This document shows positions 25,901-59,889 of a stretch of 64,000 nucleotides of DNA, piece by piece (position 1 is the first letter of the stretch; every line of letters starts with the position of its first letter). A program made the position numbers and the translations under genes. The notes under the pieces were generated by a model. It was not told the origin of the DNA, made no database searches, and worked only from the letters and a program-made list of their open reading frames with translations. Origin of the DNA: Diplonema papillatum (lineage: Eukaryota; Euglenozoa; Diplonemea; Diplonemida; Diplonemidae); NCBI GenBank assembly GCA_030068145.1, contig JAPJBO010000804.1, positions 40,832 through 104,831 of the forward strand, written 5' to 3'.

Positions 25901-27327
25901 TCCCCGTGGGCGGCACCGTGCACCGGTACTACGTGGGAGCCATCCTCTGCAATTCGGCGATCGTCGTGTTGTTTTTGCTCGTCCACTACGCTCTTTCCCG
26001 AGCCCTTGATGCCGGTGGTTCCGACCTCTCCGGGCGTGCGTGCCTTCGTTTTCCGTCCGTCTCGTCGGTCCCGTTGCTGTTCCTCTACCCCGGGACCGTT
26101 CTCGCGGCCGCCAGCATCGTGTTCCGTCCTTCCACTGGGAACTTCGTGTCCTTGGCTGTCGGGTACTCTTCGTTGTTGGCGTGCGTCGCGCTCCCACTTT
26201 CAGTAAGAGAGCACCTCCTATCAGAACCCTATTTCTGGTCTGTCCCGGCGCCCGAAAGTGCGAAGGTGGAATCGGCGCGATCCGAAGCAGAAGAAAGCCG
26301 GGCAGCCTTCGTTGATCCTCGATCTTCCTGGAAACGAATGTCGAGGTTTTTCGAAGGCAGTACCGCGTGGATAGACGCGAACGGGCACGAACAGAGCCGG
26401 TTTACAGAGAGATACGGAGTGCTTTATGATGCATACAGAGCAGGGTTGCAATGGTTCGTCCAAGGGGAATTCGCGATCTCGTTTTTTGTCAGCGTCTTGT
26501 CCGCGTTCCAGCCTAGTACGATGGTTATGTGCCACGTGCGCAATTGGTGTCTCGTCCTTTGCCTGCTTGTGTATCAAGCTGCGGTAACCCGGTACCTCCC
26601 GTATTCCATACCGTTCGACAACTTCGTTGCTGTCGTTCTCTCCTGGTGCACGACTGGAGCGGTGGTGATGATGGCTGTTGCCCTTCTGCTGGCCGCTTCA
26701 GCGCCTGATACTTCTTCGGGGCTTCTCGAAGCGGCGACAGCTCTGTTCGTGTCAGCTGGAATCGCGTTGCTTGTGAAAGCCGTGTACGACTTGGTGGGGC
26801 TGGCAAGGGAGCTTGTTGGGAAGTGCAAGGAGATCAACCGTCTACGGAAGGCACCCCCTGCTTCTTGTCCGATGGCTGCTGACCCCGACGTGTTACTGGA
26901 CGATCCGGATGAGATGCAGGCGATATTGGAACCTACCAGCAGAATCACAACGGCGACGCTCGTATCCCGTTCTTGCGAGCCTTCGCATATCGATGTGTCT
27001 TACTCCGCCGATTCGCCTTGGGCGAGTTCTGAAAATCGCGCTTCCAAAGCCGGCAATCGTTCGCCTTTTGTGCTCCCTTCGCGGCATATGTCGTTCTCAT
27101 CGACGCCGAGTCTGCTCTCCGACACTATCGGGGGAGACCTTATCTTGCCACTGTCCCCGAACACTAGATCGCCTGGCCCTAGCACCAGGTCGCCTGGCGT
27201 GGCCCCGTTGAGGCGTCATCGCGTCCGCGGGTTGACGACCATGTCGAGCCAACCGCTGCAGCAAAGCAGGCGGGCCCGTCTGTGTGCGCTGCCGGCTTCC
27301 CTTCGGCGGTTGGAAGAGCTTGACTGA
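22990..27327 (+). CDS. Family gene A: mucin-stalk multi-pass surface protein, 1445 aa
   Basis: The start is ATG 22990, which begins a hydrophobic signal peptide (MCSAVRRALVGALLVGLSSS). The reading frame is open from 22975, but only with a GTG. One cysteine-rich module follows (residues about 40-150, with WCVMLNDDGSLCETSLC and ICPVCL). Then comes a stalk of about 690 residues made of short Pro-Pro-Thr-Ala/Ser-Ala words, probably an O-glycosylated rod. A membrane domain with about seven hydrophobic segments begins near residue 982 (VGAILCNSAIVVLFLLVHYA) and ends near 1275. The tail is Ser/Arg/Pro-rich and likely cytoplasmic. The membrane domain is clearly homologous to those of genes B, C and D. 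A lacks the first cysteine module those three carry. I recognise no characterised family; a cell-surface receptor, adhesin or coat protein is inferred from architecture only. Confidence 0.9.
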   Translation: MCSAVRRALVGALLVGLSSSRCSFNSLNLNSAIHRETSTVPCKPDGELDEYQWCVMLNDDGSLCETSLCLPNGWASDEVICPVCLSASSGSFPQNYSQLMNGAVVKSIANPNLARCGQGEDVCAEPDGAGAYFCHHSCTGYGGIKQCEPVQSQSSSPHIASHAPPTLLPTAAPAVPPTVAPPTAEPPSVAPPTTAPPTAAYPTAVPPSVAPPTAAPPTVAPPTAAPATAAYPTAVPPSVGPPTAVPPSVAPPTTAPPTAAYPTAVPPSVAPPTAAPASAAPPSAAPTVPPTTAAPPTSAPNTAPPPTAAPATPALTNVVPPTAAPTAIPATAAPSTPAPTGAVPPTAAPTAIPSTAAPSTPAPTSAVPPTAAPTAIPSTAAPSTPAPTSAVPPTAAPTAIPSTAAPSTPAPTRAVLPTAAPTAIPSTAAPSTPAPTSAVPPTSAPTTAVPPTAAPASAAPRTAAPTVPPPTAAPPISAPNTASPPTAAPSTPVPSTAAPPPTAIPLTSAPASAVPPTAATTTAAPPTSAPITAVPPTAPPTAAPPTSAPTTAVPPTAATTTAAPPTSAPITAVPPTAPPTAAPPTSAPTTAVPPTAPPTAVPPTSAPTTAVPPTAPPTAVPPTSAPTTAPTAATTTAAPPTSAPTTAVPPTAATTTAAPPTSAPTTAVPPTAPPTAVPPTSAPTTAVPPTAPPTAVPPTSAPTTAPTAATTTAAPPTSAPITALPPTAPPTAAPTTAVPPTAPPTAVPPTPAPTTAVLPTAAPSSSVPTTAVPPTAAPPTTVHPTAAPSSSASPSAVPPTAAPFSSAPTTALPTTASPPTAPLASSFVPTTAAPPTAVPTTAPLLARSTKAPPFTFGPETNPPVANPQVTFGPAGKPRANTRVPGTEPPTSEPDDTTKNSEASVTLVSSGLEPLVQALDTYTVRQVTTAASIAANPGAARMAILADLECSLEAVDSTDSEPLDWDVHPVGLPVGGTVHRYYVGAILCNSAIVVLFLLVHYALSRALDAGGSDLSGRACLRFPSVSSVPLLFLYPGTVLAAASIVFRPSTGNFVSLAVGYSSLLACVALPLSVREHLLSEPYFWSVPAPESAKVESARSEAEESRAAFVDPRSSWKRMSRFFEGSTAWIDANGHEQSRFTERYGVLYDAYRAGLQWFVQGEFAISFFVSVLSAFQPSTMVMCHVRNWCLVLCLLVYQAAVTRYLPYSIPFDNFVAVVLSWCTTGAVVMMAVALLLAASAPDTSSGLLEAATALFVSAGIALLVKAVYDLVGLARELVGKCKEINRLRKAPPASCPMAADPDVLLDDPDEMQAILEPTSRITTATLVSRSCEPSHIDVSYSADSPWASSENRASKAGNRSPFVLPSRHMSFSSTPSLLSDTIGGDLILPLSPNTRSPGPSTRSPGVAPLRRHRVRGLTTMSSQPLQQSRRARLCALPASLRRLEELD

Positions 27328-36022: not shown

Positions 36023-36239
36023 ATTCCTCCTCATTTGTTTTTTGGGTTGGCGGAGAGGAGAAACACACAAAACGAAATCAGCCTGAACGCCGCCGACTAA
36101 GCGGGACATTCTCTTCTTCTTGAACGAACGCTGCGTTTCCAGAAACTACGTGTGGATCTACCTTCACTGCCGTCGAGATTCAAGCTTCCCAGTTGGCCGA
36201 AGCCCGGTCTCTTCTCTTCTGGGCGCGCACACCTCGTGG
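36023..36239 (+). promoter_or_regulatory. Conserved 5' flank of gene B
   Basis: About 200 bases before ATG 36240 align with the flank of gene C (44275-44472), including AAACACACAAAA, GAAATCAGCCTGAAC and GGGCGCGCACACC. Divergence is visibly higher than in the coding body. It holds the presumptive 5' UTR and promoter; no TATA box is evident. Confidence 0.5.
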
Positions 36240-39200
36240 ATGCCTGTGTCTAGTGCCCTGAGGAAGGTGGTTGTGGGGGTTCGGCTCCTAGCGCTCGTTA
36301 ACGCTCTTGAAAGATTCACCACCTGGGGTAGAAATCACGCCCTATCTTGTAACGGCCCGTGTACCGTAGAGGTCACTGACTCGACAAGAAAACCATACGT
36401 CGTGTATTGCGCTGTTGATGCTCCTTGTTGGCTCTTCTGCCCAAACAGAAACTGTGATGGCTTGACCCTGCATTGTCCGAAATCCAGCTTGTGCTACGTT
36501 TTGTGCGGTGATCATTGTCCAGAGGTGGTGAACAACTCAAACCTTCGCTGCGATTCTTCTGCGTCTTGTCCACAAGGCTACGGGCAGCCGCACGCGTCGC
36601 CAGAATGCAGCATCGACGAGTTACTGAGCAACAGCAACGCCGCAAATGCCAGCCCTGGTTCAGACAGCTGCAAGTCGGGAGGGTTCCTTGCACCCGGGGA
36701 TTGGTGCGCGATGACCACCGATGGCGGGAATCGTGCTTGCGAAGTGTCGTTTTGCAACTCGGCAGGGAACTGGGCGTCGAGCACTGTCCAGTGCCCTTCC
36801 TGTCTTTGGGAGGACTCAGGGTCCTTTCCGGATGGGTTCGTGCAGGTGGAGAACGGCTCCCTCATCGAAGTCTCGGCCATCACGAGCGTAGACCTTGTAA
36901 CCCGGTGCTCGGAGTCTACCGACCTCTGCGCAGAATGCTTGCCCGCAGACTGCTGCAAGAACGACTGCAGTGGGCTTGGTGACAGGAAAACATGCCCCAC
37001 CGAGGCACCACCAACCTACGCGCCTTCAACAATAGCACCACCAACGAACGCGCCATCGGGAGCACCACCAACACTAGCACCGCCAACAAAAGCACCACCA
37101 ACGAATGCACCACCAACACAAGCACCGCCAACAACAGCACCGCAAACAATATCACCACCAACTAACGCACCCTCAACACAAGCACCGCCAACAAGACCAC
37201 CAACAACGAAAGCACCGCCAACAACAGCACCACTAACACAAGCACCGCCAACGAACTCGCCACCAACGAACGCACCGCCAACAACAGCACCACTAACAAT
37301 ATCACCACCAACTAACGCACCCTCAACACAAGCACCGCCAACAATACCACCAACGAACGCACCGCCAACAACAGCACCACTAACACAAGCACTGCCAACG
37401 ACCCCGCCGCCAACGAACGCACCGCCAACAACAGCACCACTAACAATATCACCACCAACTAGCGCACCCTCAACACAAGCACCGCCAACAACGGCACCAC
37501 TATCACAAGCACCGCCAACTAACGCACCGCCAACGAACTCGCCACCAACTACCGCACCGTCAACAACAGCACCACTAACACTATCACCGCCAACGAACTC
37601 GCCACCAACTACCGCACCGTCAACAGCAGCACCACTAACACTATCACCGCCAACGAACTCGCCACCAACGAACGCACCATCAACCCAAGCACCACCAACC
37701 AACGCACCGTCAACAAACGCACCAGCAACACAAGCACCGCTAACAACAGCACCGCCAACAAGATCACCACGAACTAATGCACCGTCAACAAATTCGCCAC
37801 CAACCATCGCACCCTCAACCCAAGCACCGCTAACAACAGCACCACGAACGAACGCACCGCCAACGAACGCACCATTGACACAAGCACCGCTAACAATAGC
37901 TCCACGCACAGGATCACCGCCAACGAACTCACCATCAACACAAGCACCAACTATCGCACCGCCAACCAACGCACCAGCAACACAAGCACCGCCAACAACA
38001 GCACCACGAACAATAGCACCGCGAACTAGCGCACCGCCAACAAACTCGCCGTCAACTAATGCACCATCAACACAACCTCCACCAACGAATGCACCAGGAA
38101 CCAATGCACCGCCAACGAACGCACCATCAACAAACGGACCATCGACCACAGCACCACCAAGAAATGCGCCAGCAACGAACGCACCCGTCCAGGTCACGTT
38201 CGAGCCGAGCACGGGCGCACCGCTCGTGGGGGCGAGCAACGATACAACAAAGAATATCGAAGCGTCGGTAACGTTGGGGTTTACCGACCAGGAGCCGTTG
38301 GTGCAATCGGTTGATACCTACACCGTGCGGCTGGTCACTGCTGCGGCTTCGGTATCTGTGGATCCCAGAGCTGCGAGGCTGGCAATTTTGAAGGATCTGG
38401 AGTGCAACTTGGATGCCGTCGACAGCGCTGACTCGGAGCCTCTCGACTGGGATGTGCACCCAGTGGGCCTCCCCGTGGGCAGCACCGTGCATCGATACTA
38501 CGTGGGAGCCATCCTCTGCGATGTGGGGATCGTCGTGTTGTTCTTGCTCGTCCACTACGCTTTTTCCCGAGCCCTTGATGCCGATAGTTCCGACCTCTCT
38601 GGGCGTGCGTGTCTTCGCTTCCCTTCCGTCTCGTTCGTTCCGTTGCTGTTCCTCTACCCCGGGATCGTTCTCGCGTCCGCCAGCATCGTGTTCCGTCCTT
38701 CCACTGGGAACTTCGTGTCCTTGGCTGTCGGGGCAGTCTCGTTGTTGGCGTGCTTCGCGCTCCCGTTCTCGATGAAAGAGCACCTCCTCTCCGAACCCTG
38801 GTTCTGGTCGGTCCCGGAGGCCACAAGCCGGAAGGCGGGCGAATCGGCAGACCAGCACGCGCGGACGGCGCAGTGCATCCCACTGCAGGACTTAGTGTCT
38901 TCAGAACGGCGGCAGTCGCCGGGCGCGGCTGCCATGGAACCCGCCGTCAAAGCGGCTGCCGGCGGAGGTTGGGGGACGCGAGCTAAAAAGCTTTTCGAAG
39001 GCCGCACGTCATGGGTGGACGCGCTCGGGCATGGAGACGACCGGTTTACAGAGAGATACGGAGTGCTCTTCGATGCATACAGGGCAGGAATGGAGCGGTT
39101 TGTACTGGTGGAAGTCACCAGCTCGTTGTTAATCAGTGTAGTGTCCGCGTTGCAACCTGGCACATTATTTCTGTGTCACGTGCGCAATTGGTGCCTCGTA

Positions 39201-39959
39201 AGTTTCCTGCTTGCGTACCAAACCGCGGTAACCCGGAACCTCCCATATTCCATACCGTTCGACAACTTCGTTGCTGTCATTCTCTCCTGGTGCACGACCA
39301 TCGCAGTGGTGATGATGGCGGTTTCCTTTTCGCTGGCCGATTCGTCGCCTGGTACTGCCGCAGTGCTTCTCGAAGCGGCGACAGCTTTGTTCGTGTCAGC
39401 GGGAATCGCGTTGCTAGTGAAAGCCGTGTACGACTTGGTGGGGCTGGCAAGGGAGCTTGTCGGAAAGTGCAAGGCGATCAACCGTGTTCGGAAGGCAGCA
39501 TCTGCTCGTCGGAAGAGCGCGGTTCCGGCGGTGGCTTTGGACGACAGAGACGCCACGCAGGAGGAGGTGGAAAGGTCAAACGCCACCGCAAACGCGGCAA
39601 CTGTATCCAAAACTGACTTTTGGAACTCTGACGCATCTTGCTCTGAGTTCTCTGAAACGCGTGCGTCGAGAGACGATCATCTTGCGTCTTCTCTGCTTCC
39701 GTCGCGGTACGTCACGAAGCTGTCTTTTTCGTCGTTACCGTTGTCCGATAGCTGTTCCTCCCCTGTCCTTGTGGCGCCGCTTTCCCCTGACAGCGGCACG
39801 GCCACGCCGAGTGCGCGGGGCGGCCCGTCGGTGCAAAGTGCGCTGCGTGTCCAGCGACTTTGTCCGATCGCGACGAGCAATCCACTGCGACGCAGCTGGC
39901 GGGCTCGCGAGCGGCCGCCGATTTCTCCTCTTCTGAGCCTCGACGAGGATGGCGTATGA
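36240..39959 (+). CDS. Family gene B: mucin-stalk multi-pass surface protein, 1239 aa
   Basis: I chose ATG 36240 because it aligns with the ATG of gene C and begins a signal peptide (SSALRKVVVGVRLLALVNAL); the frame is open further upstream without a better start. Cysteine module 1 (residues about 30-115, with DAPCWLFC) is unlike that of C in most positions. Module 2 (about 122-255, from CSIDELLSN, with WCAMTTDGGNRACEVSFC) is identical to C. The stalk (about 256-650) is built from PPTNAPPTTAP and PSTQAPPT-type words. The membrane domain starts near residue 755 (VGAILCDVGIVVLFLLVHYA) and has about seven hydrophobic segments. The tail is Ser-rich and ends with Asp-Glu-Asp-Gly-Val. AATAAA at 40127 may be a polyadenylation signal. 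Function unknown; a surface location is inferred. Confidence 0.92.
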   Translation: MPVSSALRKVVVGVRLLALVNALERFTTWGRNHALSCNGPCTVEVTDSTRKPYVVYCAVDAPCWLFCPNRNCDGLTLHCPKSSLCYVLCGDHCPEVVNNSNLRCDSSASCPQGYGQPHASPECSIDELLSNSNAANASPGSDSCKSGGFLAPGDWCAMTTDGGNRACEVSFCNSAGNWASSTVQCPSCLWEDSGSFPDGFVQVENGSLIEVSAITSVDLVTRCSESTDLCAECLPADCCKNDCSGLGDRKTCPTEAPPTYAPSTIAPPTNAPSGAPPTLAPPTKAPPTNAPPTQAPPTTAPQTISPPTNAPSTQAPPTRPPTTKAPPTTAPLTQAPPTNSPPTNAPPTTAPLTISPPTNAPSTQAPPTIPPTNAPPTTAPLTQALPTTPPPTNAPPTTAPLTISPPTSAPSTQAPPTTAPLSQAPPTNAPPTNSPPTTAPSTTAPLTLSPPTNSPPTTAPSTAAPLTLSPPTNSPPTNAPSTQAPPTNAPSTNAPATQAPLTTAPPTRSPRTNAPSTNSPPTIAPSTQAPLTTAPRTNAPPTNAPLTQAPLTIAPRTGSPPTNSPSTQAPTIAPPTNAPATQAPPTTAPRTIAPRTSAPPTNSPSTNAPSTQPPPTNAPGTNAPPTNAPSTNGPSTTAPPRNAPATNAPVQVTFEPSTGAPLVGASNDTTKNIEASVTLGFTDQEPLVQSVDTYTVRLVTAAASVSVDPRAARLAILKDLECNLDAVDSADSEPLDWDVHPVGLPVGSTVHRYYVGAILCDVGIVVLFLLVHYAFSRALDADSSDLSGRACLRFPSVSFVPLLFLYPGIVLASASIVFRPSTGNFVSLAVGAVSLLACFALPFSMKEHLLSEPWFWSVPEATSRKAGESADQHARTAQCIPLQDLVSSERRQSPGAAAMEPAVKAAAGGGWGTRAKKLFEGRTSWVDALGHGDDRFTERYGVLFDAYRAGMERFVLVEVTSSLLISVVSALQPGTLFLCHVRNWCLVSFLLAYQTAVTRNLPYSIPFDNFVAVILSWCTTIAVVMMAVSFSLADSSPGTAAVLLEAATALFVSAGIALLVKAVYDLVGLARELVGKCKAINRVRKAASARRKSAVPAVALDDRDATQEEVERSNATANAATVSKTDFWNSDASCSEFSETRASRDDHLASSLLPSRYVTKLSFSSLPLSDSCSSPVLVAPLSPDSGTATPSARGGPSVQSALRVQRLCPIATSNPLRRSWRARERPPISPLLSLDEDGV

Positions 39960-40520
39960 GGTGTCTTTTCGACATAGCATATTCTGTCCATGGGCCCAGT
40001 CGGAACTGGGGCAAGAGGAAGAGACTGTGCTGCTTGAAGTGGCATCGCGAAGTAGCGTCGCAAAGGATTGACCCTGGTCGACACCGACTTGCAGATATTT
40101 GTTTTCCACAACAAGAACACACAACGAATAAAAGAAGCAACAACAACAACAGCAACAAGGGATAGCAGTTGTCCTTGACGTACGCACGTACGACGTATGC
40201 ACGAGCCCGACCAGCTGTCCTGAGTTACAAATCCTCTCACCCGCTCGCGTTTGGCTTGAAGCGGCTTTCCAGCTTGCTTTTGCCGGTCGCTCATTTTGTG
40301 TGGCCTTGGATACAAGCCTCTTGCATACCATTTGCCCTTCGCCTTCTTCTTGAGTATCAAGGTTTCCCGCGAAGTGGTGGCAATGTGTCTCTTCCCGATG
40401 TTTGCGTGCGCCGACAATGCCAGAATCCTCACCGCCCACGTTCCGGAGCTGGGCGGAGGACGGAATGAAAGTTGAGAAGTAGAAGCCAGTTGCGCAGGAA
40501 CCCGCTGGATCGATGTTAGC
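39960..40520. repeat. 3' flank of gene B, duplicated after gene C
   Basis: Aligns with 48115-48640 at roughly 90% by eye, with indels, including a ~40-bp segment right after the stop codon present only here. No gene of its own; the long minus-strand ORFs are antisense shadows. Confidence 0.8.
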
Positions 40521-40559
40521 CACATGCAATCTGATGATGATCATCTACCAATTTGCCAC

Positions 40560-41005
40560 CTGGAACCACGCATGCAGTTGGGGTGACTCCTCTCTGTCGT
40601 AGCTTACACGCAGCTCAGGAAGGTGCGAATACGCCCATGAGAGAAACAAGTTCCACACACAGCCCAAGTGCAGCACTATTCATCACGAGAATCAAGTCAT
40701 CGGCGCAGTACTTCCGTCGCCAAGCGCCGATGACCACTGTCCACTGTACGACGCCGACTCGCTCTCGGGTGTCTTGGTCGACTGCACTGATGTTGCACAA
40801 GTCTGAATAGGCGTAGTATCCCCCGGCGTACATCTCACGGGGATGTATCTGACCTACTCAGGAGGAATGAAACCCCATCGCATCCGCCTTGATTTGAGGT
40901 TGACGAGGAAGCACCACTGTCTTTCAGTCAGACTAGCATTCGTGGACGCATCGATACAACGACTTGGAGGTGGGTCCACGGGTCTCCCGGAAGCATGGGG
41001 CTGAT
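40560..41005. repeat. Dispersed element body (copy 2 of 3)
   Basis: Starts within the OTU-end sequence (CAGTTGGGGTGACT) and continues as in 33290-33560 and 49040-49420. The OTU coding part itself is missing. 41005-41660 shows no supported gene. Confidence 0.75.
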
Positions 41006-41660
41006 CCTATGTATGGTATGTGTATGGGAGCAAGCTCCGACCCGTCTGGCATCGAGGTCGTACGGGATCCTCATGGCCTGCTGCTGGCTGACAGTCGCAG
41101 CCTATTTTTTAGGCAGTGGGCCAGGCCGATGGCTCCACCAGCGAGCACATAGATTGCGCGGTTAGGAACGTGCGTGGTGTCACACGCCGGAAAGAACACG
41201 CACCTCGAATGTTCAGCAACCGGCCTGGCGTTTGGCGGAATCTCGGCCGCCGGGGATCGCAATCGTCGTCGGTGAGGTCAAATGTTCTCACGTGATGGTA
41301 CAGCCGACATTTGTTTGTGCGTATGTGTTATCACCTGGTTTGGTAGTTACCACAGTACTACTTAAAATTAGGGGAAATCGACAAAGTGAACTGGATTACG
41401 ACAGTGGATTATAATCCACTTTATCGCCCCGAATGGGGCACTTGTGGGGGGTCGCAAGGGAGTCCTTTGGGTACTTCAGGGGACTTCCGAGGGGGCCATT
41501 GGGAGCCAGGGAGACCATGGGGGCGCTATATATGCGCGTACCGCATCCTTATCTTATGTCGCCAACATGTTAGCCAGCACTGGCCATCTCGTTCACTTGC
41601 GAGTTTCTTCCATCGGAACATTAACTTGGCATCACTCTGCATCGCCTCTGATCAGCGGAA

Positions 41661-41948
41661 TTGGAATGCTGGAAAGGAAGTGCGGACAAGTGCTGGAACT
41701 CGTCGCTATCTCAATCGGTGCAGCCCTCGTCAGGACCGGAGAGACTCGCGTTGGCCGTCGGGGAGATCCTGACAGTCGTATCGCGTGAGCCTGGAGAGTG
41801 GGTACTGGCATTGAACGCAGACGGCTACGTGGTTCGTTCGGGCTCCCGGGCGTTTCTCGCGCCTGTCCCTCAGATGCACCTACGGCCGCCGCCATTAGTC
41901 CCTTGCCAAGCAAGGGGGGATCCGCGGGTGAGTCGCTGGCAGGACTAG
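41661..41948 (+). CDS. Possible SH3-like fragment
   Basis: The frame reads ERLALAVGEILTVVSREPGE followed by WVLALNADGYV, which follows the SH3 pattern ELxxxxGDxxxVxxxxxxxWWxAxNxxGxxGxVP up to the last strand. The closing 'G-x-(V/F)-P-x-x-Y' is not found in this frame. An overlapping frame (41798-42217, first codon GTG) continues with an Ala/Leu-rich helical-looking stretch (SIERSFSTLVEVTPLLHLIV-like). The two could be parts of one gene joined by an intron or a frameshift, but I cannot place a splice site. Low confidence. Confidence 0.25.
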   Translation: MECWKGSADKCWNSSLSQSVQPSSGPERLALAVGEILTVVSREPGEWVLALNADGYVVRSGSRAFLAPVPQMHLRPPPLVPCQARGDPRVSRWQD

Positions 41949-42294
41949 CACGCGTGCTAGCATCGCAGCAGCTGTCAGCCATTGAGAGGTCGTTCTCGAC
42001 GTTGGTAGAGGTAACGCCGCTGTTGCACCTGATTGTGAAAATAGAAACACGCACCCTTCAGCAGCTTCTAGCTTTGCCGCAAAGCCGCTCAGCGTTGGCT
42101 GGAACGGAAACCGACCCCCTCGCATGCATTCTTCTGGGCTTGTACGAGGGGTACTGGAATCCTGAGGCTCTGGTGGCGGAGGAAGCGGTGGTTCTGGTGT
42201 GCAGTTGTGCGAGATGAAAGTCCCAAAGAAGCGTGGAATGGCCATGCCCTTGGAGACATTAATCGAGCCACCATCGGTGCAACAATCATCTTTG

Positions 42295-42412
42295 ACAGGG
42301 CCACGGCTTGCTCCGCGCCCACGGCGCAACGACTTGCGCCCGCCGTAGTAGTACGGGATAGTAGTGGGGCGACCGGATACTCCTCGGAGAGATGGTCCCT
42401 GCACTCTAACTC

Positions 42413-42497
<85 letters not shown>
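42295..42497. repeat. GAGAGATGG-family repeat ending in an 84-bp CT microsatellite
   Basis: GCGCAACGACTTGCGCCCGC, then GCGACCGGATACTCCTCGG, then GAGAGATGGTCCCTGCACTC runs straight into (CT)n at 42414-42497. Sister copies at 11630 and 16820 have only 5-9 CT units, so the microsatellite expanded from the tail of the element. 42500-43115 shows no supported gene; 43025-43110 is built of GATACGTATCC words. Confidence 0.85.
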
Positions 42498-42500
<3 letters not shown>

Positions 42501-43118
42501 CTTTTCCTTCCCGACAAGTTCTGCGACAAGGAGTAGAAAGAGTACTCAAGGCGGCTTGGACCACACGCGACACCGCAAAAACCTTCTTTTTGATCGCGCT
42601 ACCCCAACGTCGCCACGAGGTCAAGGCACTGGATCTCCTCTCTGTGTCCCCGGCCTGCAAGGCCTTGCTGCATTCCAAGTTCAAACTATGACTGCCACCA
42701 CTTCACTGCTCAACCTTTTGACTCGTGACCAGCACCCCCGTTCAAACAGCTCTGTTTCACGGCATGCACAAGAAAATGAGAAATATAAGCAGCATTTATC
42801 AGCCCCGGGAAACACTACCGCAAGGACTAGAAATTCCAAAAAGAGGCCTCCCACATCGGATTCCTGCCTTGCGCTTAACTGCTGGCTTCGGGGCTGGCTT
42901 TGCGGCTGGCTTCGCCGCCTGCTTGGCGGCGGACATTTGCGCTGCTTTTTCGTTTGCACCTGGGCCAAGTGTATTTGATGACCTCCTGCTGCACGTATTA
43001 CTCACTACCCATACAGTCTGTACACCACGTATCCAACACGTATCCTTGCATTTTCGGAAGAAATAGATACGGATACGTATCCGTATCCTGGATACAGATA
43101 CGTATCCTAGCATCACTG

Positions 43119-44121
43119 CCCTAGGCATACATCCGATCCGACTCGTATGCGAGAATGATTCTCGCATTCTCGCATGAAATTCTCGCATATTCTCGCATGC
43201 GAGAATGATACGAGTGAAATGCGAGAATGTGTAAACCACTGAAGAACCATGTATTTGACCCGTATTCGAGGCTCCGACAGGAATACCAAGTGGAGATAGC
43301 AAAACAACGAAATAAGGCTACGCCAACTGCAGTTTTGCAGCTGGCATGGTGTTGCTTTCAAGACAAGGACACCTCAACACAAGATGTTGTCAACAACAAC
43401 TCTGGTTGCTCCATGGTATTGCTTCAATGCGTGAGTATTGGTCGAAAACACGCTTCACAACAAGTGCTCCGTCCGCCACTGTGCCTGCAACTTCTCCAGC
43501 TGCGGCTTCTTGTGTTTTCTTCTACGATTTCCTCTGCCACAGCTTGTTTCGTGAAGCTGGCGGCTTCCATTCAGTTGCCGCTGACTCAGGAGGCACGGGC
43601 ATTTTGAACATTGGCCTCGGGGCCGCCTTTGCAGGTGCATTATTAGGTTGCAGGCTCCGCGAGCCCTTGGGATCTAGGGAGCCCAGCGACAGCGAGTCAA
43701 GGAGACCTAATCCTCAACACGCTGAAAGCACAAGCAAATTTGGTTCCCGAGTTCATAAACAGCTTTGAAAGCCTGCATCCACGAACCGACGAAACGAACT
43801 GTGGCAGTGAAGACAGAGGAAGAAAAGAATGTTCACTGCACAGAGGAAGCATCAGCTGAAGAAGTTCGGAGGCCCAGTGGCGGCAAAATGCGCCGCGGAA
43901 GCCTTGGCGACGACCTAAAACGTTGATTCCTGCCGGTTTCTCATGTTCAAGCATCCCGTACTGTGAGTAACCTCATTCTCGCATATTCTCGCACGTGTGA
44001 GAATATGCGAGAATCATGCGAGAATTGCGAGAATATGCGAGAATTTTGCGAGAATCGGGGCCGCGACCCCCCAATACGAGAATATGCGAGAATGCGAGTC
44101 GTATCGGATGTATGCCTAGGG
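43119..44121. mobile_element. ~1.0-kb element bounded by 19-bp inverted repeats
   Basis: CCCTAGGCATACATCCGAT at 43119-43137 is the exact reverse complement of 44103-44121. Inside each end lies a field of 'GCGAGAAT' / 'ATTCTCGC' words in both orientations (43140-43235 and 43970-44100). The middle (43250-43960) has short ORFs on both strands and no recognisable transposase. It is best explained as a non-autonomous inverted-repeat transposon. Confidence 0.7.
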
Positions 44122-44185
44122 AGGGGGGGTACCCACCCACCCCCGCCACGGCCCCAGGGTGGGACATTGTCCCTCGGTATTCCAA

Positions 44186-44270
44186 GAACGTTGTCCCTTT
44201 GTAGTTGTATTGTTTTCTCCCCCTCTAGCCTCCGTCGAAATGAGCACAAGGCAGTCCCTCGAGTACTTCT
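44186..44270. repeat. R1 dispersed repeat copy
   Basis: TTGTAGTTGTATTGTTTTCT to GTCCCTCGAGTACTT matches 14185-14285 in inverted orientation and 31630-31712 directly. It lies immediately before the conserved 5' flank of gene C. Confidence 0.75.
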
Positions 44271-44274
44271 CCTC

Positions 44275-44472
44275 ATTGGTCATTTGGGTTGGCGTGGAGG
44301 AGGGAAACACACAAAATGAAATCAGCCTGAACACCGTTGGTCTACACGCTCCCTCTTCTTGAAGGAGCGCCGCATTTTCAGGAACTACGGTGGATCTACC
44401 CTCACTGCCCGTCAAGATCCAGTTGGCGCTCGAAGCCCGTTCTCGTCTCCTCTGGGCGCGCACACCGCGTAG
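44275..44472 (+). promoter_or_regulatory. Conserved 5' flank of gene C
   Basis: Aligns with 36023-36239 (see there). The base pair AG directly precedes the ATG here but not in gene B, so a trans-splice acceptor cannot be argued from it. Confidence 0.5.
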
Positions 44473-47400
44473 ATGGCTGTGTCTAGTGCCCTGAGGAAGG
44501 TAGTTGTGGGAGTTCGGTTCCTAGCGCTTGTTAACGCTCTTGAAGTCTTTACCATCACCAGCGGTGGCAGTACCAAATGTACCGGCCCGTGTACCGTAAC
44601 GGTTCCTTTGTGGGTAGCGTACCACACCGTCGAGTGCGCTGATGATGCTCCTTGTTGGATTTTCTGCGAAGGCACCAAGTGTGAAAGACTGGAACTGTTT
44701 TGTCCGCAAAACAGCATGTGCTACATTGCGTGTCAGGATCATTGTCCAAGATTAAAGCGCCGAGGAGAGATAAAAAGCATTTGCTGCGATGACGTTCCAG
44801 ATTGCCCAGATTTCTGCTACCTGCAGCAATTTCCGTCGCCTACCTGCAGCATCGACGAGTTACTGAGCAACAGCAACGCCGCAAATGCCAGCCCTGGTTC
44901 AGACAGCTGCAAGTCGGGAGGGTTCCTTGCACCCGGGGATTGGTGCGCGATGACCACCGATGGCGGGAATCGTGCTTGCGAAGTGTCGTTTTGCAACTCG
45001 GCAGGGAACTGGGCGTCGAGCACTGTCCAGTGCCCTTCCTGTCTTTGGGAGGACTCAGGGTCCTTTCCGGATGGGTTCGTGCAGGTGGAGAACGGCTCCC
45101 TCATCGAAGTCTCGGCCATCACGAGCGTAGACCTTGTAACCCGGTGCTCGGAGTCTACCGACCTCTGCGCAGAATGCTTGCCCGCAGACTGCTGCAAGAA
45201 CGACTGCAGTGGGCTTGGTGACAGGAAAACATGCCCCACCGAGGCACCACCAACCTACGCGCCTTCAACAATAGCACCACCAACGAACGCGCCATCGGGA
45301 GCACCACCAACACTAGCACCGCCAACAAAAGCACCACCAACGAATGCACCACCAACACAAGCACCGCCAACAACAGCACCGCAAACAATATCACCACCAA
45401 CTAACGCACCCTCAACACAAGCACCGCCAACAAGACCACCGCCAACAACGGCACCACTAACACAAGCACCGCCAACGAACTCGCCGCCAACGAACGCACC
45501 GCCAACAACAGCACCACTAACACTATCACCGCCAACTAACGCACCGCCAACGAATTCTCCACCAACGAACGCACCGCCAACAACAGCACCACTAACACTA
45601 TCACCGCCAACGAACTCGCCACCAACGAACGCACCGTCAACACAAGCACCACCAACCAACGCACCGCCAACAAACGCACCAGCAACACAAGCACCGCCAA
45701 CAACAGCACCACTAACACTATCACCGCCAACGAACTCGCCACCAACTACCGCACCGTCAACACAAGCACCACCAACCAACGCACCGCCAACAAACGCACC
45801 AGCAACACAAGCACCGCCAACAACAGCGCCACTAACACTATCACCGCCCACAAACTCGCCGCCAACTTACGCACCATCAACACAAGCGCCGCCAACGAAT
45901 GCACCAGCAACACAAGCACCGCTAACAACAGCACCGCCAACATTATCACCAACAACTAATGCACCGTCAACAAGTTCGCCACCAACAATCGCACCCTCAA
46001 CACAAGCACCGCCAACAACAGCTCCGCGCACAGTATCACCGCCAACGAACTCACCATCAACACAAGCATCACCAACTATCGCACCGCCAACCAACGCACC
46101 AGCAACACAAGCACCGTTAACAACAGCACCGCGAACAATATCACCACCAACAAACGCACCATCAACACAAGCACCGCCAACAACAGCACCACGAACAACA
46201 TCACCGCCAACTAATGCACCATCAACACAACCTCCACCAACGAATGCACCTGGTACCAATGCACCGCCAACGAACGCACCATCAACAAACGCACCATCGA
46301 CCACAGCACCACCAAGAAATGCGCCAGCAACGAACGCACCCGTCCAGGTCACGTTCGAGCCGAGCACGGGCGCACCGCTCGTGGGGGCGAGCAACGATAC
46401 AACAAAGAATATCGAAGCGTCGGTAACGTTGGGGTTTACCGACCAGGAGCCGTTGGTGCAATCGGTTGATACCTACACCGTGCGGCTGGCCACTGCTGCG
46501 GCTTCGGTATCTGTGGATCCCAGAGCTGCGAGGCTGGCAATTTTGAAGGATCTGGAGTGCAACTTGGATGCCGTCGACAGCGCTGACTCGGAGCCTCTCG
46601 ACTGGGATGTGCACCCAGTGGGCCTCCCCGTGGGCAGCACCGTGCATCGATACTACGTGGGAGCCATCCTCTGCGATGTGGGGATCGTCGTGTTGTTCTT
46701 GCTCGTCCACTACGCTTTTTCCCGAGCCCTTGATGCCGATAGTTCCGACCTCTCTGGGCGTGCGTGTCTTCGCTTCCCTTCCGTCTCGTTCGTTCCGTTG
46801 CTGTTCCTCTACCCCGGGATCGTTCTCGCGTCCGCCAGCATCGTGTTCCGTCCTTCCACTGGGAACTTCGTGTCCTTGGCTGTCGGGGCAGTCTCGTTGT
46901 TGGCGTGCTTCGCGCTCCCGTTCTCGATGAAAGAGCACCTCCTCTCCGAACCCTGGTTCTGGTCGGTCCCGGAGGCCACAAGCCGGAAGGCGGGCGAATC
47001 GGCAGACCAGCACGCGCGGACGGCGCAGTGCATCCCACTGCAGGACTTAGTGTCTTCAGAACGGCGGCAGTCGCCGGGCGCGGCTGCCATGGAACCCGCC
47101 GTCAAAGCGGCTGCCGGCGGAGGTTGGGGGACGCGAGCTAAAAAGCTTTTCGAAGGCCGCACGTCATGGGTGGACGCGCTCGGGCATGGAGACGACCGGT
47201 TTACAGAGAGATACGGAGTGCTCTTCGATGCATACAGGGCAGGAATGGAGCGGTTTGTACTGGTGGAAGTCACCAGCTCGTTGTTAATCAGTGTAGTGTC
47301 CGCGTTGCAACCTGGCACATTATTTCTGTGTCACGTGCGCAATTGGTGCCTCGTAAGTTTCCTGCTTGCGTACCAAACCGCGGTAACCCGGAACCTCCCA

Positions 47401-48114
47401 TATTCCATACCGTTCGACAACTTCGTTGCTGTCATTCTCTCCTGGTGCACGACCATCGCAGTGGTGATGATGGCGGTTTCCTTTTCGCTGGCCGATTCGT
47501 CGCCTGGTACTGCCGCAGTGCTTCTCGAAGCGGCGACAGCTTTGTTCGTGTCAGCGGGAATCGCGTTGCTAGTGAAAGCCGTGTACGACTTGGTGGGGCT
47601 GGCAAGGGAGCTTGTCGGAAAGTGCAAGGCGATCAACCGTGTTCGGAAGGCAGCATCTGCTCGTCGGAAGAGCGCGGTTCCGGCGGTGGCTTTGGACGAC
47701 AGAGACGCCACGCAGGAGGAGGTGGAAAGGTCAAACGCCACCGCAAACGCGGCAACTGTATCCAAAACTGACTTTTGGAACTCTGACGCATCTTGCTCTG
47801 AGTTCTCTGAAACGCGTGCGTCGAGAGACGATCATCTTGCGTCTTCTCTGCTTCCGTCGCGGTACGTCACGAAGCTGTCTTTTTCGTCGTTACCGTTGTC
47901 CGATAGCTGTTCCTCCCCTGTCCTTGTGGCGCCGCTTTCCCCTGACAGCGGCACGGCCACGCCGAGTGCGCGGGGCGGCCCGTCGGTGCAAAGTGCGCTG
48001 CGTGTCCAGCGACTTTGTCCGATCGCGACGAGCAATCCACTGCGACGCAGCTGGCGGGCTCGCGAGCGGCCACCGATTTCTCCTCTTCTGCGCCTCGACG
48101 AGGATGGCGTATGA
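44473..48114 (+). CDS. Family gene C: mucin-stalk multi-pass surface protein, 1213 aa
   Basis: Same architecture as gene B: signal peptide, cysteine module 1 (residues about 30-118, with DAPCWIFC and CYIACQDHC), module 2 (about 125-256), stalk (about 257-624), membrane domain from residue 729, and tail. Module 1 keeps the cysteine spacing of B but few other residues. From base 44845 (36606 in B) no difference is visible for about 590 bases into the stalk. The stalk then differs in the number and order of repeat words. From 46315 to the stop only three base differences are seen in 1.8 kb (Val/Ala in the TYTVRL region, one silent change, and Ser/Arg near the end). The protein is therefore a paralogue whose outer module has diverged while the remainder is kept identical. 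Function unknown. Confidence 0.92.
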   Translation: MAVSSALRKVVVGVRFLALVNALEVFTITSGGSTKCTGPCTVTVPLWVAYHTVECADDAPCWIFCEGTKCERLELFCPQNSMCYIACQDHCPRLKRRGEIKSICCDDVPDCPDFCYLQQFPSPTCSIDELLSNSNAANASPGSDSCKSGGFLAPGDWCAMTTDGGNRACEVSFCNSAGNWASSTVQCPSCLWEDSGSFPDGFVQVENGSLIEVSAITSVDLVTRCSESTDLCAECLPADCCKNDCSGLGDRKTCPTEAPPTYAPSTIAPPTNAPSGAPPTLAPPTKAPPTNAPPTQAPPTTAPQTISPPTNAPSTQAPPTRPPPTTAPLTQAPPTNSPPTNAPPTTAPLTLSPPTNAPPTNSPPTNAPPTTAPLTLSPPTNSPPTNAPSTQAPPTNAPPTNAPATQAPPTTAPLTLSPPTNSPPTTAPSTQAPPTNAPPTNAPATQAPPTTAPLTLSPPTNSPPTYAPSTQAPPTNAPATQAPLTTAPPTLSPTTNAPSTSSPPTIAPSTQAPPTTAPRTVSPPTNSPSTQASPTIAPPTNAPATQAPLTTAPRTISPPTNAPSTQAPPTTAPRTTSPPTNAPSTQPPPTNAPGTNAPPTNAPSTNAPSTTAPPRNAPATNAPVQVTFEPSTGAPLVGASNDTTKNIEASVTLGFTDQEPLVQSVDTYTVRLATAAASVSVDPRAARLAILKDLECNLDAVDSADSEPLDWDVHPVGLPVGSTVHRYYVGAILCDVGIVVLFLLVHYAFSRALDADSSDLSGRACLRFPSVSFVPLLFLYPGIVLASASIVFRPSTGNFVSLAVGAVSLLACFALPFSMKEHLLSEPWFWSVPEATSRKAGESADQHARTAQCIPLQDLVSSERRQSPGAAAMEPAVKAAAGGGWGTRAKKLFEGRTSWVDALGHGDDRFTERYGVLFDAYRAGMERFVLVEVTSSLLISVVSALQPGTLFLCHVRNWCLVSFLLAYQTAVTRNLPYSIPFDNFVAVILSWCTTIAVVMMAVSFSLADSSPGTAAVLLEAATALFVSAGIALLVKAVYDLVGLARELVGKCKAINRVRKAASARRKSAVPAVALDDRDATQEEVERSNATANAATVSKTDFWNSDASCSEFSETRASRDDHLASSLLPSRYVTKLSFSSLPLSDSCSSPVLVAPLSPDSGTATPSARGGPSVQSALRVQRLCPIATSNPLRRSWRARERPPISPLLRLDEDGV

Positions 48115-48640
48115 GGTCGGAACTGGGGCAAGAGGAAGAGACTGTGTGCTGCTTGAAGTGGCATCGTGAAGCGTCGCAAAGGATTGACGCTGGTCGACAC
48201 CGACTTGCAGATATTGGTTGTCCACAACAAGAACACACAACGAGTAAAAGAAGCAATAACAAAACAGCAACAAGGACAGCAGTTGTCCTTGACTTACGCA
48301 CGTACGATGTATGCACGGCCCCGACCCGCTGTCCGCCTTATTGCAGTGCAAGATATTTTTGAAAGTAGCAACAAACCCTCTCACCCGCTCGCGTTTGGCT
48401 TGAAGCGGCTTTCCAGCTTGCTTTTGCCGGTCGCTCATTTTTGTGTGTGTGTGGCCTTGGATACGAGCCTCTTGCATACCATTTGCCCGCCTTCTTCTTG
48501 AGTATCGAGATTTCCCGCGAAGTGGTGACAACGTATCTCTTCCCTACGCTGTCTGCGTGTGCTGATGATGCCAGAATCCTCACCGCCCACGTTCTGGAGC
48601 TGGAATGAAAGTTGAGAAGCAGAAGCCAGTTGCGCAAGGT
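48115..48640. repeat. 3' flank of gene C, homologous to 39960-40520
   Basis: Roughly 90% alike to the flank of gene B with several small indels; the AATAAA of B reads AGTAAA here. Confidence 0.8.
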
Positions 48641-48744
48641 ACCCGCTGGAACGATGTTAGCCACATGCATGAGGAAACTGAACCCGAGTAGAACCTCTGA
48701 TCATGATCATCTACCATGCCATCTGGAACCACGTCCAGGATTGG

Positions 48745-50674: not shown

Positions 50675-51570
50675 AAAAAGCTAGCTCGGCGTTTTCCAAA
50701 AAACAATACACTTTTGCACAATAAAAGCCGGGTTGGCTCGAATAGAGGCTATTCACATTGCATGTTCATAGGACCTCCAGTCTCGAAAAATAAGAAAAAA
50801 GAGCTGTTAAAACGGAAAAGAGGCTGATCAATGGTTTCTCAAAGGCCGCGGTTTGGTGGTGTTTTGTGAACCAGCACACTCTCTCTGCCACCCTGTGGTG
50901 CGGTTTGCTTTGCTGGCGCTATGAAGAGGACGGCTGAAGCGCCGCTCCTCGTGGCTGGTGTGGACTATTTCAGTTGTCTCAGTGCACTCAGAATTGGTCG
51001 GACCCGGTGCAGGTGCTACTGGTGTAGATACGGCTGGTATCTCAACCTGTGGGTTGTTCTGTGGCACTGCTTCCTTGGCTTCTACCGCATCCAGTGCAGG
51101 GGATGACAACGTCGGCCAGGCGGCGAAAAAGAACGGGAATCGTGGGAGTGCCTTGTAATATCGAAAACCCTCAGTTATGTTCAAGGGATGAAGCCGGAGG
51201 TGACAGAAAAATTGCCACAGGGAAGGGGACTTGTGGCAGCCGAGCGTTCATAGCAATGTTGCTTTTCGATCCTTCGATGTTGACTCTTCCTAACCTAGAC
51301 AAGCAGAATTGTCTAAGGGTTGGCTTGTTCACCCACTAACAGGGAATGTGAGTTGGGTTTCGACCGGACAGGTTGGTTTTACCAAACAATAGTCAATATC
51401 GCGCCGAAGGCGCGAAGGAAAAAAACACCACCCTGCAACAAAACTCTGGATAGCCCTTGGATAACCATTGGATAAAGCCTGTATATAATAGCAATATTTT
51501 AACGCCCACTAGTTTTAATGTTCGCGGAATTTCCGGAAAGAAATCGGGTGGATAATAGGTCTACCCCCCT
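50675..51570. other. No supported gene
   Basis: A minus-strand ORF at 50828-51184 (118 aa, Pro/Ala/Thr-rich middle) has ordinary composition but no recognised domain and no supporting context. Other ORFs are short. Confidence 0.35.
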
Positions 51571-54740: not shown

Positions 54741-54741
54741 A

Positions 54742-54940: not shown

Positions 54941-54941
54941 T

Positions 54942-55475: not shown

Positions 55476-55700
55476 TCGGAATAGCATAAGGGGTTCGGAG
55501 CTCTTTCACAGGAGTTCCACAGCCGCTGTGGAGTTCCACCACTGCTGTTCTGATGCAAAAGGAAAAGCAAAAGTGCTGAGCAACCCCTCGGCCAAAATTT
55601 AGGCCTCAGGGGTGCCCCAGGGTAAATGACAACGAATTATACTGATACCTGGTATTAACAAAGTGCTCATGCTACTTCGTTACTTCCTCAGGACACGGGA

Positions 55701-55987
55701 GATGGGGGGTGTTGGGAAAATGCAGCTGATCCTCCTCGCGGTTTTTGCCGCAACGCTCGTGGCGCCGGCGGCAGCGGACGTGGGAGGTGCACCAGATGCA
55801 CGAGAACGAAACGACGGTGTGCGCCGGAGCCTGCATCGTCAAGTGCGTCGCCGGTGCCAGAACAGCAGCGCGCCCGACCAGCCGTGCTGGATCCCAGCGG
55901 CTGCGGCGACGTGTCGGTCTCCTGCCCTGGCGACGGCCGCTGCTTTTTCAACTGCCCCCTGCTCATGCCGCACCTTTTCGAGTGCAT
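55701..55987 (+). pseudogene. Broken 5' copy of family gene D
   Basis: Starts MGGVGKMQ with the same signal peptide end (AATLVAPAAADV) as gene D. A 2-base deletion then shifts the frame, and two further deletions remove parts of cysteine module 1. Similarity stops at about 55987, where an R1 repeat begins. Upstream sequence (55434-55490) also matches 56075-56130, so this is a degraded tandem duplicate. Confidence 0.88.
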
Positions 55988-56311: not shown

Positions 56312-59089
56312 ATGGGGGGTGTTCGGAAAATGCAGCGGATCCTTTTCGCCGCAACGCTCGTGGCGCCGGCGGCAGCGGACGTGCTGGAGGTGCACCAGAT
56401 GCACGAGAACGAAACGACGGTTTGCACCGGAGCCTGCATCGTCAAGTGCGAGGGCGCCGCCGCGTGCCAGAACAGCACCGTCGTCTGCGCGCCCGACCAG
56501 CCGTGCTGGATCCTGTGCACCAGCGGCTGCGGCGACATGTCGGTCTCCTGCCCGGGCGACGGCCGCTGCTTTTTCAACTGCCCCCTCGTCTGCCCCCTAC
56601 TCATGCCCGACCTTTTCGAGTGCACCGGCAGCGGTTGCGACGATGCCGTCCGCCAGCCGACGATACCCTCGGCGAGATGCGAGTTCGACGACTTGGATCT
56701 CGCCGCGAACGCAGCGGCGGTCGACCCGTCGAAATCGGCCGACGCCTGTAAGCCTGGCGAGTATCTACGGCCGAAAGAGTTCTGCGCGATGGCGAACGGG
56801 CTTGGGTCCCCGTGCGAATCCGCGTTTTGCACGGAGGATGGCGCGTGGGCAGTCAAAACCATCGAGTGCCCGGCCTGCCTGTGGGAGTCCTCCGGCGCGT
56901 TTCCGGCGCCGTTCGTGCAGCTGGCGACGGGCGAGGTCTGCGATCCGACGGCGGGAGCGTGCCCGGATCCCGTCCGCTGCTCTTCGGACGCCACCCTCTG
57001 CGTCGGCACCGCCGGCGACGTGTGCGTTGAGTCTCCCCCCGCGTCCGCCGCTCCAAAGACGTGTGCACCCCCCCCTTTCACTTTCACGCCGGTCACGCCC
57101 GAGCCGGCGGCGCCGCCGCCGGAAGAAAGCGTGGCTCCCGCGCCCCAGGTCCCATCGGACGCGCCCCCTCGCGCGCCTCTTCCGCCCGGCAACGCAACGG
57201 GTGCACCCGCGGCAGGCGAGGAGTCGGATGCGCCGCTTACCTCAGACAACGCAACGGATGCACCCGCGGCAGGCGGGGAGTCGGATGCGCCGTTTCCCTC
57301 AGACAACGCAACGGTAGCCGCTGAAGAGCTGCCGACGATAGACGTTGGGGTGGTAGAGGGGGCGGTGGCGGTGGCTGGCGTGGCGCTGAGCCCCGGCGCA
57401 GCGAAGCTGATGATCGTCAGCCACCTCGACTGCAGCCTCGACGACGTCGACTTCGCGGCCGCCGAGCCGCTGCCGTGGACGATCCACCCGCTCGGCGTGC
57501 CCATCGGGACCACGCCGCACCGCTTCTACCTGGGCGCCGTCGTCTTCGACTGCCTGCTGCTGGCCGTCGTCCCGATCCTGCAGCTGCTCCTATCCGCGGG
57601 GCTCCACAAGCTCCACCCCGCCGGGTTCCCGACGAAGGCCGCGGCGCGCGCGGCGGTGCGGTACCCGTCGGTGGGGTTCGTCCCGTTTCTCTTCCTGTAC
57701 CCGGGCATCAGCATGTCGTCGGCGAACATCGTGTTCCGCCCCGGCGACGGGACGCCGGAGACCGCGATCTTCGGCTGCCTCTGCTTCGCGGCGTGCGCGG
57801 CGCTGCCATTGGTGGTCTACCGCTACGTCCTCCGCCCCCGGGTGTTCTATGCGGAGTGCATCGAGAGCGTCGACGATGACGCAGACGCTGACGCAGACAG
57901 GGGGCAGCCGCCGCCGCCGGCCCCGAAGGTTGTGAACAAGCCGCAGGGGAAGTTCCTCGAGGAGATCGTCGAGCGGGATCCGGGAAACCGGCAGAGCCTC
58001 GCGCCGAAGATGAGCGCTTCGGACTTCCTCCTGACGTTCAGAGGCGTCGACGAGCTTCCGCCGGACGAGACGTTCGTCCTCAGCGACAATCCGGCCGTGA
58101 AGAACGGATCGAACGACAGCGCCTCCCCCGCTGGGAAGTCCACGTGGAGAGCGGCAATCTGCAACGGAATCCTCCGGTTTTTGCAAGGTTCCACCGAGTG
58201 GGTGACCGTGCGTGACCAGGCGGACACTCGGTTCGTCGAGAAGTACGGCGTGGTTTTCGAAGGCTACCGGGACACGATGCAGAACTTCGTGTTCGCGGAG
58301 ATGGCGTCGTCGCTGTTCATCGGGACCCTGTCCGCCTTCCACCCCCGCACCCTCGCGCAGTGCCACATCCGGAACTCGTCGGTCGTGATCTCCCTCGCGG
58401 TGTTCCAAGTCGCCGTCACGTACTGGCGGCCGTACGCGACCGCGTTCGACAACACCGCCGCCATCTTCTTCTCGACGGCGGCCACCTTCGCGGTGGGGTT
58501 CATGGCCGTCGGCATCCGGCTGCCGTTCAGCCACTCCGATACCGCGCAGACGCTGCTCGATTTTTCGACCGGATTGATGGTGATTTCGGCCCTCCCGCTC
58601 TGCGTGAAAGCGCTCGTCGACCTGGTGTTCCTCGCTTTTGACCTGAGGAAGCGATTCTCCGCCTTCATCGCCGGAGAGAGCAGCGGAACCGTCGAGGACA
58701 TCACCCCGCCCCCCCTGTGCGCCGAGCTGGAGCCTTTCGTCGAGCCGGCGTCGCTGTACCACGAGGAACCCGCGTGGGAAGTGTCCGGCAACAGCGCCCG
58801 GAACAGCCGCCGGCCCTCGCGGTCGGACGCCCGCGCCTTCTCCCCCCTGACCCCGACCAGCGGTGGCTTCTCGAGCCCTTCCCCTGTGAGCATCTTCAGC
58901 TTCCCGCCTTCCCCTTCCGTGCGTGCGTTGCACGCCCCCTCTCGCAGGCCGTCGGTGTCCAACCCGCTGCGCAAAAACAGGTCAAAACCGGCCCGCCGGT
59001 GTTCGGTGCTTCTCGTGCCGGAGGCGGAGCCGCTCGCCCCAGCGGCTGTGGACAGGCTTTCCCCCACCGCGGTGAACCCTACCGTCTAA
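56312..59089 (+). CDS. Family gene D: short-stalk multi-pass surface protein, 925 aa
   Basis: I chose ATG 56312, which begins MGGVRKMQRILFAATLVAP, a good signal peptide; ATG 56330 is also possible. The frame is open upstream to 56111, but with no signal peptide start. Cysteine module 1 (about 25-115, with DQPCWILC and SCPGDGRCFFNCP) and module 2 (about 130-245, with FCAMANGLGSPCESAFC and CPACLWESSGAFP) are both present. The stalk is only ~80 residues (about 251-333), with a twofold SDNATDAPAAGGES repeat that includes N-glycosylation sequons. The membrane domain begins near residue 405 (YLGAVVFDCLLLAVVPILQL) and has about seven hydrophobic segments; CHIRN in it corresponds to CHVRN of A-C. The tail contains SNPLRKN, like SNPLRR in B and C. 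It is GC-richer than A-C and the most diverged member. Function unknown. Confidence 0.9.
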   Translation: MGGVRKMQRILFAATLVAPAAADVLEVHQMHENETTVCTGACIVKCEGAAACQNSTVVCAPDQPCWILCTSGCGDMSVSCPGDGRCFFNCPLVCPLLMPDLFECTGSGCDDAVRQPTIPSARCEFDDLDLAANAAAVDPSKSADACKPGEYLRPKEFCAMANGLGSPCESAFCTEDGAWAVKTIECPACLWESSGAFPAPFVQLATGEVCDPTAGACPDPVRCSSDATLCVGTAGDVCVESPPASAAPKTCAPPPFTFTPVTPEPAAPPPEESVAPAPQVPSDAPPRAPLPPGNATGAPAAGEESDAPLTSDNATDAPAAGGESDAPFPSDNATVAAEELPTIDVGVVEGAVAVAGVALSPGAAKLMIVSHLDCSLDDVDFAAAEPLPWTIHPLGVPIGTTPHRFYLGAVVFDCLLLAVVPILQLLLSAGLHKLHPAGFPTKAAARAAVRYPSVGFVPFLFLYPGISMSSANIVFRPGDGTPETAIFGCLCFAACAALPLVVYRYVLRPRVFYAECIESVDDDADADADRGQPPPPAPKVVNKPQGKFLEEIVERDPGNRQSLAPKMSASDFLLTFRGVDELPPDETFVLSDNPAVKNGSNDSASPAGKSTWRAAICNGILRFLQGSTEWVTVRDQADTRFVEKYGVVFEGYRDTMQNFVFAEMASSLFIGTLSAFHPRTLAQCHIRNSSVVISLAVFQVAVTYWRPYATAFDNTAAIFFSTAATFAVGFMAVGIRLPFSHSDTAQTLLDFSTGLMVISALPLCVKALVDLVFLAFDLRKRFSAFIAGESSGTVEDITPPPLCAELEPFVEPASLYHEEPAWEVSGNSARNSRRPSRSDARAFSPLTPTSGGFSSPSPVSIFSFPPSPSVRALHAPSRRPSVSNPLRKNRSKPARRCSVLLVPEAEPLAPAAVDRLSPTAVNPTV

Positions 59090-59405: not shown

Positions 59406-59439
59406 TTTTACCGTCGGTGACCAGTGGTGGCCCACCTAG

Positions 59440-59530: not shown

Positions 59531-59687
59531 TAACGAGCTCCCGTTTGTCGAGGCTTTTGCTGGTGTCTACTTTGCCTTATCCTGCCTTTCCAGTTTTCTC
59601 CAGCTTCTGAACAGAAGCCTTAAATACCAGCTTCCCAGTTTTTCTTACCCGGGGAAACCCCTTTTACCGCTTACCCCAAGATAGGCC

Positions 59688-59880
59688 ATCGGTGGCCAAC
59701 TCGTTACGCAAAAACAAGTCGAAACCGGCTTGCCGGTGTTCGGTCCTTCTCGTGCCAGAGGTGGAACCGCCCGGCCCAGCGGCTGCGGACAGGTTCGCGG
59801 TGAACTCCACCGTCTAACGCTCTGGCAGTGTGGCCAGCACGTGCGGCCTCGTTTTGACACTTTTGCACAGGCCGTCGGCT
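59688..59880 (+). pseudogene. 3'-end fragment of family gene D (copy 2)
   Basis: Covers the last ~40 codons of D, from the LRKNKSK-type word to a stop, plus the following CTGGCAGTGTGGCCAGCACG block; a small deletion removes part of the 'RLSPTAV' end. No upstream coding sequence is present. Confidence 0.85.
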
Positions 59881-59889
59881 TTCGAGGTC

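Follow-up and report, generated by a model that had tools for sequence, protein, structure and literature searches.

Two tandem genes of the diplonemid Diplonema papillatum, here called B and C, were found to share two near-identical tracts set within diverged homologous sequence, a pattern that one or two events of ectopic gene conversion explain most simply and best. Both genes lie in the window, the 64,000-nucleotide stretch C804:40832-104831 (C804 being contig JAPJBO010000804.1 of assembly GCA_030068145.1, 271.4 Mb in 2910 contigs), within an array of genes whose products are composed of a signal peptide, cysteine (Cys) modules, a proline/threonine (P/T) stalk, six or seven predicted membrane helices and a tail. 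Taken as a whole, it is likely that B and C are paralogues that underwent recent ectopic conversion, that a fast-changing tip escaped it, and that the proteins act in adhesion or recognition. The two genes and their parts are located in the window as follows.

36027..36239, + strand: 5' flank of gene B, homologous to 44269-44472 at gene C, 13.3% mismatch
36240..39959, + strand: gene B, 1239 amino acids (aa), with a signal peptide, Cys modules 1 and 2, a P/T stalk, a membrane body of several helices and a tail
36315..36605, + strand: module 1 of B, variable between cysteines, 45% aa identity to module 1 of C
36606..37201, + strand: identical tract 1 in B (module 2 and stalk start), 0/596 differences from 44845-45440
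37202..38137, + strand: stalk centre of B, diverged from C, 83/816 mismatches and 9 gap runs
38138..39959, + strand: near-identical tract 2 in B (stalk end, membrane body, tail), 3/1822 differences
39960..40528, + strand: 3' flank of B, homologous to 48115-48669 at C, 6.05% mismatch plus insertions and deletions (indels)
44473..48114, + strand: gene C, 1213 aa, architecture as in gene B
44548..44844, + strand: module 1 of C, best genome match outside itself being module 1 of B (44%)
44845..45440, + strand: identical tract 1 in C, by base comparison with B
45441..46292, + strand: stalk centre of C, by alignment with B
46293..48114, + strand: near-identical tract 2 in C, by base comparison with B

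Three levels of divergence separate B from C: near-identity in the two tracts, moderate divergence in the flanks, signal peptide and stalk centre, and far higher divergence in module 1. A reading of the letters alone (the sequence-only reading) had reported no difference between 36606-37200 and 44845-45440, and three between 38160-39959 and 46315-48114; both statements hold, with the first identity spanning 36606, the first base of module 2's first cysteine codon, to 37201, and the three differences lying at 38335, 39917 and 39936, so that 38336-39916 in B is a 1581-nt run without a difference to C. The two longest identical runs (1581 and 596) both surpass the shuffle maximum of 195 (2000 shuffles, 4309 alignment columns). 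The same reading had called the body otherwise base-identical, which is correct for the two tracts and not for the stalk centre at 37202-38137, a region as diverged as the flanks. Its placing of the 5' switch at the module 1/module 2 boundary is exact, whereas the 3' switch falls near the stop codon and not precisely on it, the final two differences being 42 and 23 nt upstream of 39959 and a 38-nt indel following the stop. By hydropathy analysis, the C-terminal parts of B and C hold 6 peaks each.

The flanks, said to differ at about one base in ten, showed 26/196 mismatches with 8 gap runs on the 5' side and 31/512 mismatches with 12 gap runs on the 3' side, and the signal peptide 8/75 mismatches without indels. 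Since homology between the two loci reaches to ~36027 and ~40528, the older duplication included the untranslated regions (UTRs). Module 1 differed at 67/251 positions with 12 gap runs in a gap-tolerant DNA alignment, and at 121/291 bases in a codon alignment; cysteine was kept in 12 of the 14 cysteine-holding columns and 29 of the 85 other aligned positions were identical, in agreement with the view that this module has been rewritten outside its cysteines.

Silent sites are nearly unchanged within the tracts (1/427 differing in the C-terminal part and 0/87 in module 2, set against 6-13% in the flanks), and protein-level selection therefore cannot explain their identity. Excerpts of the D. 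papillatum genome paper report a haploid laboratory strain, with fewer than 600 variant sites in 142 Mb (PMC10161547), and B and C are therefore not allelic. When the assembly was searched at the DNA level, no third near-identical copy of the body came up, only these two, both on this contig. B and C thus carry near-identical tracts within diverged homologous flanks, with chance and alleles excluded, as gene-converted tandem paralogues do, and the proposal of gene conversion made from the letters is well supported.

The sequence of events begins with an older duplication, UTRs included, that gave B and C within an array of stalked multi-helix surface proteins. Recent ectopic conversion between them then probably copied module 2 with the stalk start, and the stalk end with the membrane body, and would have halted where indels abound: in the 3' UTR, in the stalk centre and in module 1. 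Heterology rich in indels impedes the exchange of strands. Tract 1 stops shortly before the stalks start to differ by whole repeat units, and since the tract ends and the stalk gap coincide with such heterology, the tidy boundaries would need no selection. Module 1, the outermost cysteine domain, escaped homogenisation and has undergone fast amino-acid change on a kept cysteine frame, with diversifying selection on a binding face as the probable cause. Elsewhere in the array, recombination put the ectodomain of one subfamily on the membrane body of another (gene E, below). The membrane body thereby stays common while the tip varies, and the proteins would most likely help the cell to adhere to prey and surfaces or to recognise them, as has been proposed for the probably related bodonins of kinetoplastids.

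Two other accounts of the tracts were weighed. Homogenisation of two truly different bodies by read correction or by a collapsed contig is improbable: the published assembly did merge Celera and Canu contigs, according to excerpts of its description (PMC10161547), and redundant contigs exist in this region, but these agree at 99.83-99.92%, B and C remain distinct in the stalk centre and flanks, which are resolved, three differences persist in tract 2, and the tract edges coincide with indels. If instead the whole gene had recently been duplicated in tandem, near-identical cores such as those seen would be left, yet both flanks, the stalk centre and module 1 would each have had to be replaced later and separately by homologous diverged sequence, against one or two events under conversion, and we hold this account to be very improbable.

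For the tip, the dN/dS check proposed for module 1 alone gave a maximum-likelihood (ML) dN/dS ratio (omega) of 1.64 for the B/C pair, compared with 0.28-0.50 for four other domain pairs; the excess over 1 was not significant (2dL, twice the log-likelihood difference, 2.39). Diversification of the outermost domain, as the sequence-only reading had it, is accordingly plausible and not proven. Accelerated evolution of cysteine-framed secreted proteins is familiar from the venom families of cone snails and snakes, in which, as in B and C, the signal peptide and UTRs are more conserved than the mature domain and the cysteine codons are kept; B and C differ in encoding a membrane-anchored, receptor-like protein and in an omega not significantly above 1. 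A structural model of modules 1 and 2 of C (mean predicted local distance difference test score, pLDDT, 79.3) contained 9 short strands in module 1 (residues 24-103) and had no significant match in the PDB, with no E below 0.79 among the 50 matches listed. We take 30 of these 50 to be beta-solenoid proteins and several others to carry complement-type modules, none being significant.

The tip of B or C might instead be a cassette from a lost or unassembled paralogue, that is, swapped in and not mutated under selection, which we judge rather unlikely. A contingency locus for antigenic variation, with silent copies donating tips to a single expressed gene, is highly improbable. Tandem genes with a conserved body and a variable tip, trypanosomatid surface families as possible relatives, and one broken partial family copy within the array (the 5' end of gene D) would fit it; against it, long frames are intact in all 10 of the aligned members, and conversion that spares the tip and homogenises the body would be the reverse of classic antigen switching. 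The organism is, moreover, described as a free-living predator in excerpts of the genome paper (PMC10161547), and the results give no sign of switching or of an archive of silent copies. Of the two behaviours suggested from the letters, surface antigen or recognition, the former is thus unsupported and the latter, with adhesion, is preferred; adhesion or recognition with shuffled, diversifying tips is the most likely role.

B and C belong to a large multicopy family. The B body protein gave at least 78 matches in at least 56 gene-sized clusters on at least 36 contigs, these counts being lower bounds that include redundant contigs, with 74 of 249 first-look candidates scored. Nine membrane cores were scanned against Pfam (E<=1), with the TRP profile PF06011 found in 5 and the DGF-1_C profile PF11040 in 2, all under the cut-offs. 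The PF06011 matches cover the C-terminal part of the profile (5/9 cores, E<=0.12, best 3.8e-5), the best reaching 23.1 bits against a cut-off of 28.5. Over the genome, PF11040 was found at 7 places at E<=0.1, 2 of them above the cut-off, and in 0/14 control genomes; when the seven cores were scanned alone, 5 matched below the cut-off (E 1.1e-5 to 8e-4). A profile built from these seven cores aligned to the B/C family profile (hhalign) with probability 100 and E 4e-46 over 322 columns. The loci L054, L055, L057 and L059 are distant family members in which a P/T stalk and membrane body are joined to ectodomains of different appearance, and Pfam gave no match for these four ectodomain stretches. 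A model of the B core contained 7 helices of at least 24 residues at low confidence (mean pLDDT 62.8); it had no significant fold match in the PDB, and the membrane cores had no PDB sequence match.

Through these bridging loci, the window genes are probably relatives of the bodonin/DGF-1 lineage, as profile comparisons suggest, and not DGF-1 members, because they fall below the curated cut-off. The PF11040 cut-off was not reached by any window gene, 2/9 cores matching weakly (E 0.01 and 0.025), and L054, the best PF11040 place genome-wide, together with L056, gave no match at E<=0.1 when scanned alone.

Bodonins of Bodo saltans are described, in excerpts of the primary report, as multicopy proteins that combine a repetitive ectodomain rich in glycosylation with some seven helices and a domain inside the cell, for which attachment of the cell to prey and surfaces was proposed, some resembling DGF-1 (PMC4728078). 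The B/C family shares with them the order of extracellular, multi-helix membrane and intracellular parts, the multicopy state, a free-living phagotrophic host and an adhesin-like proposed role (PMC4728078); it differs in its APPTN-type P/T stalk and cysteine-module tip, bodonin being compared by description only, and in that conversion and ectodomain swapping are here resolved to base level. According to excerpts of one paper, DGF-1 of Trypanosoma cruzi carries 8-9 helices at its C-terminus, and its genes are inferred to have undergone recombination or conversion (PMC9967923). The likeness consists of a multi-helix C-terminal domain (the weak, repeated profile matches in this genome), a cysteine-rich ectodomain and such exchange, whereas DGF-1 genes are far longer (10-12 kb) and belong to a parasite, and the window genes stay below the DGF-1_C cut-off. 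To the TRP-like domain PF06011 the likeness is limited to the partial C-terminal profile matches. In excerpts of one study, the attached cells of one trypanosomatid have raised levels of DGF-1 proteins, and diplonemids can be induced to attach by nutrient availability (PMC10734937). The literature search, which did not extend to supplements, found no description of a bodonin/DGF-1 family in diplonemids, and the literature searched on both made no link between diplonemids and DGF-1.

Further members and fragments of the array were located in the window.

22990..27327, + strand: gene A, related membrane body (64% aa identity with B), long stalk, module 2 present but module 1 absent from this frame
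55682..55986, + strand: incomplete copy of gene D's 5' end, 83% to 56292-56624, frames broken
56312..59089, + strand: gene D, a more distant array member, 37% aa identity to B (C-terminal part), very short stalk
59683..59854, + strand: incomplete copy of gene D's 3' end, 82% to 58946-59126

The partial copies of gene D resemble the "repeat-bounded genes" described for this species in excerpts of the genome paper (PMC10161547). The neighbouring gene E gave conflicting trees for its ectodomain and its membrane body and is a chimera, with the ectodomain of one subfamily and the membrane body of another; its joint was located in the stalk, by where the DNA similarities end. Window 53033-54836 matches C728:31421-33225, directly downstream of gene E, at 95.8%, a duplicated stretch in the array. 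Window 53308-64000 corresponds to C728:1-10682 (99.88%) and window 53071-63382 to C2000:12884-23194 (99.92%); C2000:1-12883 has no match of at least 300 bp to the window, and the C2000 overlap reflects a misjoin or else a gene D region present twice in the genome.

Outside the array, fragments of eukaryotic large-subunit ribosomal RNA were found at window 1-577 and 51228-51374, and minisatellites at 12952-13854 (83 bp x 10.9, 98% matches) and 27725-28110 (49 bp x 7.9, 97% matches). A formin FH2 domain spans two open reading frames (ORFs) in different frames at 17293-19495, probably exons, the second above the Pfam cut-off and the first below. The ORF at 30689-31585 carries a terminal bacterial autotransporter beta-strand repeat (TIGR02601 above cut-off, PATR below) and is a candidate for horizontal transfer from bacteria. 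A 19-base query, which we take to be part of the euglenozoan spliced leader, occurred 628 times in the assembly (329 + 299), compared with 0 for its reversed control, and one such place reads CCAACGATTTAAAAGCTACAGTTTCTGTACTTTATTG, presumably the diplonemid leader. The genome paper gives 280.3 Mb in 6181 contigs of at least 200 bp (PMC10161547, excerpts).

The mechanism classes involved are already known; in the literature searched, no description was met of their setting, a free-living diplonemid with a probable bodonin-like family. Near-identical membrane parts combined with very different outer tips suggest that surface proteins are mixed and matched naturally in organisms other than parasites. 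More broadly, the array may be a mix-and-match recognition system in a non-parasite, with the P/T stalk as recombination joint, the body homogenised by conversion, and the tips exchanged (gene E) or positively selected (module 1 of B and C), forming a diplonemid branch of the bodonin/DGF-1 lineage; this is a tentative possibility, weakened by the failure of L054 to match in the second PF11040 scan. Trypanosome surface families have been proposed as descendants of the adhesins of free-living flagellates (PMC4728078, excerpts), and the mix-and-match system, if true, would mean that such shuffling arose before trypanosomes became parasites. With conversion tracts, an ectodomain chimera and a fast tip in one diplonemid family, it could be asked whether surface-protein shuffling predates parasitism, and since D. 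papillatum is reported, in the same excerpts as above, to be haploid and open to gene replacement (PMC10161547), that question would be directly testable.
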